A DNA stretch of 5,462 nt from an uncultured Ruminococcus sp. (GTDB lineage Bacteria > Bacillota_A > Clostridia > Oscillospirales > Acutalibacteraceae), in assembly GCA_902773395.1 (NCBI GenBank), contig CACYEJ010000189.1, positions 1-5,462 on the forward strand, in the 5' to 3' direction. The number at the start of each line of letters is the position of its first letter. Position 1 is the stretch's first letter. Shown here in pieces: positions 1,580 through 5,462 of the stretch. The position numbers were made by a program, and so were the translations under genes. The notes below the pieces were generated by a model, which did not search any database, was not told the DNA's origin, and saw only the letters and a list, made by a program, of their open reading frames with translations.

Positions 1580-2707
1580 ATGGGATTAATTAAGGCAACT
1601 ACTAATTCAGTAAAGACAGTACTCGCAGACCAATGGGTTGATTACTTTTATTGCGATTCAATCAAAGAAGATACATTGGCAATTAAGGGTTTTAAGCGAG
1701 TTCCGGAAGGATCATCTAACATTAAAGGTTCAAGCAATTATATTACATCAGGTTCTGTTGTTGCTGTTGCTGACGGTCAATGCATGATGGTTGTTGAGCA
1801 AGGAAAAGTGATAGATGTTTGTGATACGCCTGGTGAATATATTTTCGACTCTGATAGAACTCAAGGTATATTTGCTAATGAATCTGATAAATCCGTTAGT
1901 TTGCTAATCGATAAGGCCAAGGATAGATTTAGATATGGAGGCCAGACAAACCTTGATCAACGGATATATTATTTCAATACGAAAGAAATAACAGGAAATA
2001 GATATGGCACACCTTCGGCGATTCCATTCAGAGTAATTGATAAAAATATTGGCATTGATATGGATGTTTCATTAAGGTGCTTTGGTCATTTTAGTTATAG
2101 AATTGCGAATCCGGTGCTGTTTTATAAAAATGTAACAGGAAACTTTGAATCAGATTATAAAAGAGATCGCTTAGATGAACAGTTAGAAGCAGAAGTGATA
2201 TCTGTTTTGCAGCCTTGCTTTGCGCAGATTTCCGCGCAGGGTATTAGGTACTCTTCTCTTCCCTTGCACGCTGAACAGATCTGCAAGGTGATGAACGCCC
2301 TACTATCTGAAAAGTGGTCAGATCTTAGAGGGATAGAGATCGTTTCCTTTGCAATAAAAGGTCTTAAAGCAAAGGAAGAAGATGAAAAAATGCTGAAAGA
2401 GTTGCAACGCAATGCTGCTTTTAGAGATCCGACAATGGCTGCCGCTCAACTTGTCGGCGCACAGTCAGATGCAATGAAAGCGGCTGCATCTAACACAAAC
2501 GCCGGTGCCGCAGCTGCCTTCATCGGCATGAATATGGCATCGCATGCAGCAGGAATAAATGCTGGGGACTTGTTTTCCACGGGAGGAAAACAACAAAACC
2601 ATCCAGACAAAAATGACACAGAAATCCAGGGTAACTGGATTTGTAGCTGTGGATCAGTAAACACATCTAGCTTTTGTCCATCCTGCGGTCAGAAGAAACC
2701 TGATTAA
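1580..2707 (+). CDS. SPFH-domain protein, YdjI-like, with C-terminal zinc ribbon
   Basis: The 375-residue product starts MGLIKA, the usual opening of the SPFH/YdjI-like family, and this ATG has GAGGAG (1568-1573) six bases upstream. An in-frame ATG at 1556 would add eight residues but lacks a ribosome site. Residues 1-20 look like an amphipathic, membrane-associating helix. Residues 25-265 cover the SPFH (band 7) core; 265-285 is charged helix; 286-335 is an Ala/Met/Gly-rich linker; and 353-371 is a zinc ribbon with C355, C357, C366 and C369. There is no transmembrane helix or enzyme motif. SPFH proteins oligomerise on membranes as scaffolds; in Bacillus, YdjI acts beside a PspA-like protein in envelope stress, as I recall. 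No PspA gene lies here. It leads the operon, 50 nt ahead of a second zinc-ribbon gene, and probably assembles the other products at the membrane. Confidence 0.9.
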   Translation: MGLIKATTNSVKTVLADQWVDYFYCDSIKEDTLAIKGFKRVPEGSSNIKGSSNYITSGSVVAVADGQCMMVVEQGKVIDVCDTPGEYIFDSDRTQGIFANESDKSVSLLIDKAKDRFRYGGQTNLDQRIYYFNTKEITGNRYGTPSAIPFRVIDKNIGIDMDVSLRCFGHFSYRIANPVLFYKNVTGNFESDYKRDRLDEQLEAEVISVLQPCFAQISAQGIRYSSLPLHAEQICKVMNALLSEKWSDLRGIEIVSFAIKGLKAKEEDEKMLKELQRNAAFRDPTMAAAQLVGAQSDAMKAAASNTNAGAAAAFIGMNMASHAAGINAGDLFSTGGKQQNHPDKNDTEIQGNWICSCGSVNTSSFCPSCGQKKPD

Positions 2708-2757
2708 CCGAAAAGGGTATGCTGTGGCGGACGAGAAAAAGAAAGGCGAATTATACT

Positions 2758-3021
2758 ATGAAAGCATTGATATGCGAGCACTGTGGTGGTGACGAGTTCA
2801 TTGAAAAAGACGGTTATCGCATTTGTATGTATTGCAAATCCAAGTTTTTCCTGAGCAAAGAGGAAATGCCACGAGCAACGGCGACTATTTCGCTTAATGA
2901 TGATGTCGAGAGGCTGTTGAAGAAATGCAAGACAAACCCTGCACGAGCTAAAAAATACGCAAGGCTTGTTTTGGAGATCGATCCTAACAATACAGAAGCA
3001 ATGATGATTATGATGAGATAA
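2758..3021 (+). CDS. Small TFIIB-type zinc-ribbon protein, 87 aa
   Basis: The product opens MKALICEHC, typical of a zinc-ribbon family widespread in Clostridia. C6/C9 and C23/C26 make a CxxC-13-CxxC ribbon. Residues 45-87 (DDVERLLKKC to NNTEAMMI) resemble a single TPR-like helical pair, as found after the ribbon in longer relatives that, from memory, run well beyond 100 residues, so this is a short form. I chose 2758 because the ATG at 2719 is only one base after its AAAAGGG and would add 13 basic residues unlike the family; AAAGG (2742-2746) serves 2758, at a longish 11 bases. The stop at 3019-3021 overlaps the ribosome site of the next gene, implying translational coupling. Despite the TFIIB-like ribbon nothing indicates DNA binding; an adaptor role in the membrane complex is more likely. 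Confidence 0.8.
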   Translation: MKALICEHCGGDEFIEKDGYRICMYCKSKFFLSKEEMPRATATISLNDDVERLLKKCKTNPARAKKYARLVLEIDPNNTEAMMIMMR

Positions 3022-3034
3022 AAGGAGGTCCGTT

Positions 3035-3667
3035 ATGCCCACAGTATCAGAAATACAAAAAGCATCTGGAGTTAAGGATGAGAAGAAAATCTTTAGCCTG
3101 CTTCGCTCTAGCGAAAAATTCAAAGACAAGATTAAAGACCACCCTTTTAAAGGTTGGGTTGTTGACGGAGATATAAACGAGATAGTTGCTTTCATTAAAC
3201 TATCAGAAGCGGCAGAGAAAGAACTAGCAGAGGCTAGAAAAGAAGAGGAAGCTAAAGCTGAAGCAGAAAGACTCAAAGCGAAGAAGGAATATGATGCTGA
3301 AGTTGCTAAGATATTAATCACTTCGGGACACTCATTTGAAGGGTATAGAATCACAAAGTATTCCGGCTATATATCAGGCGATGACGCAATAAGTGTCAGC
3401 CGTGGTTTTGATGGCTGGAAAACTACTGGTGCAGATGTCGGAGAGTATTTGTTGCAATCCTTGACAATCATACGCCAGAATGCAATACGCGAGTTAAAAG
3501 AGGCTGCTGTTGATTTGGGATGTAATGCCGTTATTGGAGTAGATTTTGATTATATTGACTTAGCGCCTGAAACAGCCAATTCATCTGGTGGAACGACATA
3601 TTATCCGTATGTGTTTTGTGTAACGGCCAACGGAACGGCGGTTACAATTGAAGAATGTGTGCATTAG
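3035..3667 (+). CDS. YbjQ-domain (DUF74) protein with N-terminal helical region
   Basis: The 210-residue protein has three parts. Residues 1-55 are a small predicted domain (HPFKGWVVDGDINEIVAF) that I do not recognise. Residues 56-90 are a charged Glu/Lys/Ala coiled coil. Residues 93-207 match the YbjQ family (DUF74): ILITSGHSFEGYRI, SGYISGDDAIS, then a helix with IRQNAIRELKEAA, then LGCNAVIGVDFDY and a C-terminal strand NGTAVTIE. YbjQ proteins form pentameric rings and are often labelled heavy-metal-binding, but their function is unsettled. The start has AAAGGAGGT (3021-3029) five bases upstream, the strongest ribosome site here, so this may be the most abundant product. The N-terminal extension is additional to the usual YbjQ length of about 105 residues. 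It lies 13 nt after the zinc-ribbon gene and is probably a soluble partner of the SPFH and RCC1 proteins. Confidence 0.85.
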   Translation: MPTVSEIQKASGVKDEKKIFSLLRSSEKFKDKIKDHPFKGWVVDGDINEIVAFIKLSEAAEKELAEARKEEEAKAEAERLKAKKEYDAEVAKILITSGHSFEGYRITKYSGYISGDDAISVSRGFDGWKTTGADVGEYLLQSLTIIRQNAIRELKEAAVDLGCNAVIGVDFDYIDLAPETANSSGGTTYYPYVFCVTANGTAVTIEECVH

Positions 3668-3748
3668 ACGCTCTGCGCTTAATTAGCACTGGGTGTTTAT
3701 AGTATTATCAATTACAATCATAAAAGGTTGTTTTGCGTGGTGTTACAT

Positions 3749-5242
3749 ATGAATCTTTTTAAGAAAAAACTCCAGTATGATGACATGCTCAAGCAGGGCA
3801 TTATAACTTATGCTGAATTCCAGAAATTAAAGACAAGTCTTTATTCTAAGAACATGGCAGAACTCGGCATACATGATGAGGCTGAATTTGAAAACTACAT
3901 CAAGGAGGATGCTTTCAAAGAAGCTGTATTAATGCTCGAGAATCATACTGTCTCAAGTTACAGGGAAGCAATATCTTGGCTAGAAAAACTCGGTGATTGG
4001 GGTAATGCAGCTTCACTTATTGAACAATATACACCTGAACTTCGTGAACTTGAAAAACAAGAAAGATTAGAACAGGCAGAAAAAGCAAGAGCCGATGCTA
4101 TAGCAGCAGAAAAGAAAAAGAAGAAGTTCAAAAGAATCCTCGCTATTGCGATACCAGCAATACTTGTAATAATCGTAGTAGGTATAGGACTCCATTCTTA
4201 CCAGGAAAAGAGAGCAAGAGAAGCAGCAAAGCAAGCTGAGTTAGAACGCCAGGAAGCTGAAAAAAAAGCTGAATTAGAACGCCAGGAAGCTGAAGAACAA
4301 GCAGAGAAAAAACGTCAAGAAGCAGAAGAACAAGCAGCTTTAGAGTTTTCAAAGAAAACAAAAGAAATGAAGCCCGCTATAAAGGCCGCTCTAAGCAGGT
4401 GTTCGTCTGGTTTATCAGCTGGAGGACTTCCCACGTTAGGACTAAAGTCAGACGGTACGGTTATTACAAGCAAACAAGATTACAATAGCGATATAGAAGT
4501 GAGCGATTGGACAGATATTATTGCTGTATCCGCTGGAAATTCCCATGCAATAGGTTTAAAGTCAGACGGCACTGTTGTTGTAACTGGAGATGCTGACTAT
4601 TGCGGAGTTACAGAAGCGAGTGGCTGGACAGATATAGTCGCAATAGCAGCTGGAGTGGATGCAGTTGGATTGAAATCAGATGGAACTGTTGTTCTAACCA
4701 GGGAGGATGACGATGTAGCAGAAGTAAGCAAATGGACAGATATAGTCGCAATAGCAACCGGATTCCATTGCACGGCTGGGCTTAAATCAGACGGTACAGT
4801 TGTGACATCTGGATATGATGACGATGTAGCAGAAGTAAGCGATTGGACAGATATAGTCGCAATAGCATCTGGAAGTAGTTATGTCGTAGGATTGAAATCA
4901 GACGGCACTGTTGTTGCCGCTGGATATGATGACTGGGGTGCTACAGACGTAAGCGATTGGAAAGATATTGTTGCAATATCAGCTGCAGAGGAACACACGG
5001 TAGGCTTAAAATCAAATGGCACAGTTGTTGCAACAGGAAATGAGGACAATGGCCGAATAGACGTAAGCGATTGGAAAGATATTGTTGCAATATCAGCCGG
5101 AAATCTTGACACATTAGGATTGAAGTCAGATGGCACAGTTGTTGCAACAGGAGATGATGACGATGATGACGATAGCGAAACGATAGAAGTGAGAGGGTGG
5201 ACAGGTATAGTAAACAAAGGCTATAAGTACCTTACAAGATGA
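3749..5242 (+). CDS. Membrane protein with SHOCT-like segment and seven RCC1-like repeats
   Basis: Numbered from the ATG at 3749 the protein has 497 residues. Residues 9-33 (DDMLKQGIITYAEFQKLK) match a SHOCT motif, here at the N-terminus. Residues 53-101 hold a helical motif (YREAISWLEKLGDWGNAASLI) common in Clostridia proteins. Polybasic residues 122-129 precede one transmembrane helix (130-149), so the N-terminus is cytoplasmic. A Glu/Ala/Lys coiled-coil stalk (151-203) leads to seven repeats (229-488) of 37-38 residues, each with GLKSDGTV, then an acidic loop, then WTDIVAI. These resemble shortened RCC1 propeller blades; seven would close a ring outside the cell. The last blade has seven Asp (469-475). 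The start is uncertain: GTG at 3737 has AAAGG nine bases upstream and would add four residues; the ATG is preceded only by GTGGTG. An 82-nt gap from the previous gene holds at most a weak promoter. No enzyme motif; a sensor or binding role is inferred. Confidence 0.8.
   Translation: MNLFKKKLQYDDMLKQGIITYAEFQKLKTSLYSKNMAELGIHDEAEFENYIKEDAFKEAVLMLENHTVSSYREAISWLEKLGDWGNAASLIEQYTPELRELEKQERLEQAEKARADAIAAEKKKKKFKRILAIAIPAILVIIVVGIGLHSYQEKRAREAAKQAELERQEAEKKAELERQEAEEQAEKKRQEAEEQAALEFSKKTKEMKPAIKAALSRCSSGLSAGGLPTLGLKSDGTVITSKQDYNSDIEVSDWTDIIAVSAGNSHAIGLKSDGTVVVTGDADYCGVTEASGWTDIVAIAAGVDAVGLKSDGTVVLTREDDDVAEVSKWTDIVAIATGFHCTAGLKSDGTVVTSGYDDDVAEVSDWTDIVAIASGSSYVVGLKSDGTVVAAGYDDWGATDVSDWKDIVAISAAEEHTVGLKSNGTVVATGNEDNGRIDVSDWKDIVAISAGNLDTLGLKSDGTVVATGDDDDDDDSETIEVRGWTGIVNKGYKYLTR
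4433..5212 (+). repeat. In-frame tandem repeats of 111-114 nt coding the propeller
   Basis: Seven in-frame units, all 37-38 codons. Some are almost identical in DNA: 4706-4756 and 4817-4867 differ at 2 of 51 bases, 111 nt apart, and TGGACAGATATAGTCGCA recurs at 4625, 4733 and 4844. Other units differ by many silent changes. This points to recent unit duplication or gene conversion within an older repeat array. Confidence 0.85.
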
Positions 5243-5250
5243 TGACCTAT

Positions 5251-5352
5251 TTGAGAACACCTTTGAGAACACTTGGAAAGAGGCGACGTAGAATCCCCCT
5301 TTCTATGGGCTTTCCAAGGTTTGTGTCCGGCGTTCGAGTCGCCGATGGCTCA
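5251..5352 (+). repeat. Element end repeat, copy 2, with intact tRNA-Lys T-arm
   Basis: TTGAGAACAC occurs at 5251-5260 and 5263-5272, two bases further apart than in copy 1. Then 5273-5337 matches copy 1 at 63 of 65 bases, with TTGGAAAG (5273-5280) and CTTTCCAA (5310-5317) as perfect 8-bp inverted repeats. It begins eight bases after the RCC1-like stop codon. From 5324 to 5352 it is a tRNA-Lys end: T-stem CGGCG (5328-5332), loop TTCGAGT, stem CGCCG (5340-5344), ATGGCTC and A. Unlike copy 1 the T-arm is not interrupted. No D-arm or anticodon arm precedes it, so this is an attachment remnant and not a tRNA gene. Confidence 0.8.
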
Positions 5353-5395
5353 CAAACAAAACAGACGCTCCTGGTGAGCGTCTGTTTTTGTTTGT
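5353..5395 (+). terminator. Long hairpin terminator ending the operon
   Basis: ACAGACGCTC (5361-5370) pairs with GAGCGTCTGT (5376-5385) around CTGGT, extended by three A-T pairs and, across a one-base bulge, six more; T-rich sequence follows. The symmetry means it may work in both directions. It differs from the terminators at 1046 and 1350, so this tRNA fragment has a different downstream neighbour. Confidence 0.85.
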
Positions 5396-5401
5396 ATAAT
5401 C

Positions 5402-5462
5402 AGGCGACGAGAACGCGGAGCGTTCGATGCTGGGGCAGTTAACGGCCGCAAGCTGCGCGCCG
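5402..5462 (+). repeat. Partial second copy of the 1241-type module, cut by the window edge
   Basis: Bases 5420-5462 repeat 1241-1284 with few differences (GCGTTCGATG, then GGGGCA, TTAAC, GCCGCAAGCT and GCGCCG). Just before it AGGCGACGAGAA (5402-5413) resembles AGGCGACGTAGAA of the end repeats, as if most of the repeat between them had been deleted. GAACGC-GGA-GCGTTC (5411-5425) is a perfect 6-bp inverted repeat, a shape expected of a recombinase core. It probably starts another element to the right. Confidence 0.6.

Follow-up and report, generated by a model that had tools for sequence, protein, structure and literature searches.

We analysed a 5462-bp stretch of DNA (hereafter the window) from an uncultured Ruminococcus sp., in which a block of four genes occupies positions 1580-5242 of the + strand. 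An initial annotation had proposed that these four adjacent, co-directional genes make up a single membrane system, and the arrangement itself is real: four open reading frames (ORFs) are present at 1580-2707, 2758-3021, 3035-3667 and 3749-5242, all on the + strand, with gaps of 50 nt before gene 2, 13 nt before gene 3 and 81 nt before gene 4. By comparing these genes with their relatives, we find that the conserved unit is smaller than the block; its core is a pair of genes, encoding a zinc-ribbon/TPR protein and a YbjQ protein (genes 2 and 3), and an SPFH protein (gene 1) is its common partner. Start codons of genes 1-3 were set after homologues, and that of gene 4 was chosen within an ORF that opens at 3728. 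The four genes are:

1580-2707, + strand: gene 1, a YdjI-like SPFH/Band_7_1 protein of 375 aa with one C-terminal zinc ribbon, a facultative partner of the pair (PF13421, alignment, shared-contig test)
2758-3021, + strand: gene 2, an 87-aa zinc ribbon with a TPR-like hairpin, the first gene of the conserved core pair (homologue alignment, TPR likeness, adjacency)
3035-3667, + strand: gene 3, a 210-aa YbjQ protein with a variable winged-helix-like head (residues ~1-45), a long helix (47-91) and the YbjQ core (93-207), the second core gene (PF01906, structure model, fold matches, adjacency)
3749-5242, + strand: gene 4, a 497-aa one-pass membrane protein with a weakly SHOCT-like N-terminus, a transmembrane segment at ~130-148 and seven RCC1-like repeats of ~38 aa (Pfam, hydropathy, repeat spacing)

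The evidence for the core pair is its recurrence: genes 2 and 3 are neighbours in all nine readable loci besides the window, five of them phage contigs and four of them bacterial genomes. When IMG/VR was scanned with a YbjQ alignment, five phage loci were confirmed, each with the zinc-ribbon gene directly upstream; the same five contigs came back when the query was a zinc-ribbon alignment, made afterwards and including three of those phage proteins. Since L009 and L011 are 99.99% and ~89% identical to L010, respectively, the five contigs represent three lineages. In L009-L011 the pair runs antisense to neighbours that we read as tail genes, and in L012 the zinc-ribbon gene is followed by YbjQ and then by SPFH, the three lying beside three recombinase-like ORFs, one of which is confirmed by Pfam. 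A search for a related phage that would show the L011 site without the pair had no match. The zinc-ribbon query had no match in the phage or plasmid collections, and early zinc-ribbon scans of genome contigs and, in a first pass, of viral contigs were set aside, as each yielded one locus (L001 and L002) with generic ribbons only.

Among bacteria, the pair is scattered. A zinc-ribbon search of 301 genomes from the phylum of G001, the Anaerolineales metagenome-assembled genome with locus L001 (a phylum that we take to be Chloroflexota), gave three matches, of which one, G296, was strong; at class level, G296 itself was the single match among 396 genomes at E<=1e-12. Within the family of G296, 13 of 147 genomes matched the zinc ribbon, four of them strongly. 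Searched with YbjQ, the 147 genomes gave exactly these four at E<=1e-10, with the YbjQ gene adjacent to the zinc ribbon in each. The nine weaker zinc-ribbon genomes, which were left out of the pair count, held no YbjQ at E<=1e-10, and none was found in the ~3-kb loci L024-L026.

A protein-cluster test, in which equal longest-contig sizes served as a proxy for shared contigs (28 SPFH, 25 zinc-ribbon and 120 YbjQ clusters; 5000 jittered sets), provides indirect support for genes 1-3 occurring together. SPFH and zinc-ribbon clusters coincided 12 times against 0.10 expected, one of the 12 being the window itself, while the other two pairings coincided 6 and 8 times against 0.40 and 0.46 expected; four longest-contig sizes were common to all three sets. 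The proposal of one four-gene system, and the co-occurrence across genomes that it implied, therefore hold in part: genes 1-3 recur together and genes 2 and 3 are constant neighbours, but SPFH is facultative and no relative of gene 4 stands at these loci.

The surroundings of the pair vary. The neighbourhood of the pair in L037 looks cassette-like, with intergenic repeats of ~100 nt (at 7831-7945, at 8994-9108 and in additional copies). A GTPase gene (MMR_HSR1 and DUF697; LeoBC is matched weakly in PADLOC) is found downstream of the pair at L035:7052-8167 and L037:6729-7667. We tested it as a partner; six of the 147 genomes match it at E<=1e-30, four of them at 84-100% identity, and since two of those four (G439 and G426) fall outside the 13 zinc-ribbon genomes, the GTPase is not obligatory. 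In G439 (L052), a DUF4238 gene sits between comparable anchors.

Gene 1 matches the SPFH family Band_7_1 (PF13421) with E=4.6e-15 and 56.3 bits against a curated cut-off of 24. Although described as a membrane scaffold, the protein lacks any segment that resembles a transmembrane helix (its best Kyte-Doolittle mean over 19 residues is 1.26). SPFH relatives are frequent, occurring in 75 of the 147 genomes of G296's family (E<=1e-10); in all four pair-bearing genomes they lie on contigs other than that of the pair, and SPFH is found in one of the five phage records with the pair. Scanning viral contigs with SPFH yielded no relative, and the phage and plasmid collections held distant SPFH proteins only (nine records at 25.6-45.9% and seven at 22.7-31.8%, respectively). 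SPFH is thus a frequent but facultative partner of the pair. The window copy ends (2704-2760) without the second C-terminal zinc ribbon that the 27 aligned close relatives carry, through either natural truncation or divergence.

Gene 4 is probably a passenger in the cassette. It matches RCC1_2 (PF13540; E=6.8e-23), and it is a one-pass protein as described, with one strong hydrophobic segment (best 19-residue Kyte-Doolittle mean 3.08). Its SHOCT-like segment gave a sub-threshold match only, SHOCT_2 (E=0.016, 15.8 bits) falling below the cut-off of 24. As a core member the RCC1 gene was rejected, being without relatives beside the pair in the nine readable loci, where tblastn with gene 4 found nothing. 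Of seven pair-bearing records searched for RCC1_2 (four genomes and three of the five phage records), two genomes have it, on contigs other than the pair's, and the phage records have none. No relative was confirmed when viral contigs were scanned with gene 4, a scan able to pick up close relatives only. RCC1 relatives occur in 12 plasmid records and one phage-collection record; the latter is a scaffold that we read as bacterial (an FtsH-like N-terminus is among its ORFs) and it has no SPFH, zinc-ribbon or YbjQ match.

The two core proteins differ in how far they can be assigned. In gene 2, which had been described as a ribbon followed by helices, the four ribbon cysteines are invariant across 25 homologues and the C-terminal segment resembles designed TPR proteins, in agreement with that description; no Pfam family exceeds its cut-off. 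Gene 3 matches PF01906 (YbjQ/UPF0145) with E=1.4e-11 and 45.4 bits against a curated cut-off of 23, and all 91 aligned YbjQ homologues match this family at E<=0.1. The absence of a visible enzyme motif from the block was likewise upheld, as no enzyme family exceeded its curated cut-off in the Pfam scan.

Mean identity among YbjQ homologues is 27% for the head versus 73% for the core, and structure modelling suggests that this fast-diverging head is winged-helix-like. A first model, built from 17 rows, reached a predicted local distance difference test (pLDDT) score of 62; Foldseek returned nothing for it at E<=0.001, and VIA was used to compare its head. A second, for which 91 YbjQ proteins out of the 120 listed were aligned under the near-identical P0146 as first row, reached a pLDDT of 88; monomers were modelled in both cases. 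In fold comparison the modelled core shares the alpha/beta fold of 1vr4 and 1y2i, a fold also common to RcsF and IgaA. The rows listed by VIA for the better model barely cover the head, and we do not claim that the head is absent from known folds. In BFVD, the single match at E<=0.001 is a phage 'heavy-metal-binding protein', and the phage and plasmid collections held distant YbjQ proteins only (four Listeria phage records and eight plasmid records, ~33%). P0146 is one residue off the window's protein and is listed with a longest contig of 3070 bp, which suggests another, near-identical copy outside the window. At L035:8989-9840, the YbjQ protein has a GRF zinc finger at its end (PF06839, E 1.9e-7), a combination also listed for P0233.

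The block had been called a mobile-looking cassette, and its flanks bear this out. The features concerned are:

1000-1041, + strand: partial tRNA-Lys(UUU) gene, its 3' half (anticodon loop through discriminator base), a probable integration-site remnant (999-1041 aligns at 86-93% to tRNA-Lys 3' halves among the matches listed)
1161-1248, no strand assigned: left-hand copy of a direct repeat of 88 nt, with GAGAACAC arms, a hairpin and the start of a tRNA-Lys T-arm (repeat families D5, D7 and D9; fold prediction)
5250-5352, no strand assigned: right-hand copy of that repeat, with a tRNA-Lys T-arm and acceptor 3' strand at its end (D5, D11; 5324-5352 is identical to 1013-1041)
5358-5388, + strand: terminator-like hairpin of 13 pairs directly beyond the right repeat (hairpin scan)

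The two copies of the 88-nt repeat (1161-1248 and 5250-5337) are 91% identical and flank the gene block. After 1248 the left copy is interrupted by a hairpin-capable insert of ~83 bp, and the tRNA-like end picks up again at 1332; the start of this hairpin-forming stretch (1249-1331) recurs near the right end of the window (5420-5462, D9), possibly as a small mobile repeat. In the window, ARAGORN called no complete tRNA gene. A search with 985-1420 had matches in five records of phages and 23 of plasmids (18 of the latter from Clostridioides and 2 from Proteus), the matches listed aligning inside 999-1042. Of the four matching places fetched, three (L048, L050 and L051) sit in tRNA-Lys(ttt) genes called by ARAGORN. 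The fourth, L049 (inovirus Dulem virus 51, from lemur faeces), has the same tRNA-Lys 3' half with no tRNA gene, ~460 nt from a tyrosine-integrase gene, where it is likely an attachment site. Given where these tRNA-Lys 3' halves lie, we read the cassette as sitting at a tRNA-Lys attachment region, probably an array of elements. Direct repeats that end in the 3' part of a tRNA, a feature of tRNA-targeting integrative elements, are thus present; no integrase or recombinase was recognised by Pfam among the four cassette genes and the two other ORFs, on a contig that ends soon past the right repeat. Exact repeat patterns occurred in no viral contig, the right end of the window had no match in the plasmid collection, and Rfam gave nothing above gathering scores in the window, relaxed scans adding sub-gathering matches only. 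Terminator-like sites number five in the window versus 4.5 in shuffles, a count that by itself is no evidence. At the left end (1-459, - strand), an ORF runs from its start to the contig end; it has a signal-like hydrophobic N-terminus and is cysteine-rich, and we read it as cell-surface-like.

The component families of the pair are known. By profile and fold, the core domain of gene 3 is like that of YbjQ/UPF0145 proteins (PF01906; 1y2i, 1vr4, 2gtc), from which the window protein differs by a variable winged-helix-like head, a 45-residue helix and its tie to a specific zinc-ribbon partner. PHROG 15412 (function not assigned) is matched by the window's YbjQ protein and by those of L012 and L008 (E 6.6e-11 to 1.3e-8); unlike the two-gene pair, it is a single-protein family with no partner recorded. 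Phage morons, including the SPFH moron named for Stenotrophomonas phage DLP5 (PMC5834331), resemble the pair in being accessory cargo in phage genomes, and differ from it in that the cargo here is a conserved two- to three-gene unit. Morons are also characterized, in the accessible text of a further paper, by G+C distinct from the phage and by their own promoter and terminator (PMC1524935). The accessory genes do lie inside phage genomes (the five IMG/VR contigs), and G+C of the pair is below the mean in four of four loci (L010 and L011 being one lineage), beyond the range of the other sequence windows in L046 only; promoter and terminator consensus scans were near or below chance. Against the anti-phage systems of PADLOC-DB 2023 there was no significant match, the best being E 0.0023 (gene 4, PD-T4-6) and the next 0.003 (gene 2, PDC-S64), with none for genes 1 and 3. 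No paper that treats YbjQ and SPFH together was found in the literature searched, which covers part of the literature, and within it the fixed YbjQ/zinc-ribbon pair of phages and scattered genomes appears to be undescribed.

Taken together, a pair that is adjacent in every readable locus, occurs in phages as well as in scattered bacterial genomes and, in the window, lies between tRNA-Lys-derived repeats is likely an accessory membrane-stress or superinfection module borne by phages and islands. With moderate confidence, we propose a mobile accessory module with the zinc-ribbon/TPR and YbjQ proteins as its core, SPFH as common partner and the RCC1 protein as probable passenger, which would give membrane-level protection or block rival phages. 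For such a module we infer an oligomer, a complex, a ligand and an effect. YbjQ protomers, whose UPF0145 relatives have solved structures tabulated as pentamers (PMC4092069) and no role assigned in the literature text consulted, would form a pentameric ring with helical stalks and variable winged-helix-like heads; the heads may read a changing ligand, DNA or protein; the zinc-ribbon protein would couple the ring to an SPFH oligomer beneath the membrane, where SPFH is present; and the complex would protect the envelope of the carrier cell or block a rival phage there. A narrower version, in which the pair is a conflict system whose changing heads recognise an invader's DNA or protein while the zinc-ribbon/TPR adaptor, with SPFH if present, makes a membrane-level block, is unlikely as it stands.

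One possible alternative, which we entertain only tentatively, is that the genes belong to an envelope-stress network of the YdjGHI type, in a branch that lacks PspA; a YbjQ ring, together with SPFH/zinc-ribbon proteins, would then organise the stressed membrane, and mobility would be incidental. The likeness to pspA-ydjGHI of B. subtilis lies in YdjI, an SPFH domain with a C-terminal zinc ribbon, and in a zinc-ribbon partner, and the available parts of papers on the phage shock protein response report band-7 and zinc-ribbon proteins with PspA in Firmicutes, as well as SHOCT-like links (PMC11237479, PMC9239133). That SPFH relatives are common in the family of G296, and that the fold of the YbjQ core is shared with RcsF and IgaA, would also fit. 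Yet the window differs from that operon in its 87-aa ribbon and TPR-hairpin partner, the added YbjQ and the phage-borne core pair; PspA/YdjF, YdjG and YdjH were not recognised among the six window ORFs scanned, on a short contig whose genome may carry them elsewhere. SPFH is absent beside the core pair in eight of nine readable loci, and the patchy spread and phage carriage of the pair are unlike housekeeping. It is improbable, too, that the two genes are a metal- or redox-responsive regulatory pair, with YbjQ as a DNA-binding regulator bearing a ligand-binding ring and the zinc-ribbon protein as its co-factor. The dedicated four-gene membrane system first envisaged, with the RCC1 propeller as outer sensor, draws on co-directional genes with short gaps in one repeat-flanked cassette and on the strong transmembrane segment of gene 4, but the lack of an RCC1 relative beside the pair elsewhere, and a gap before gene 4 that exceeds those before genes 2 and 3, make it very improbable.

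Returning to the mobile accessory module, the fixed partner, the phage carriage and the fast-diverging head of the YbjQ protein provide a handle for finding what the YbjQ ring does. If the pair indeed acts in phage exclusion or envelope protection, then SPFH, zinc-ribbon and YbjQ proteins, which are usually met apart, would be united in one mobile unit.

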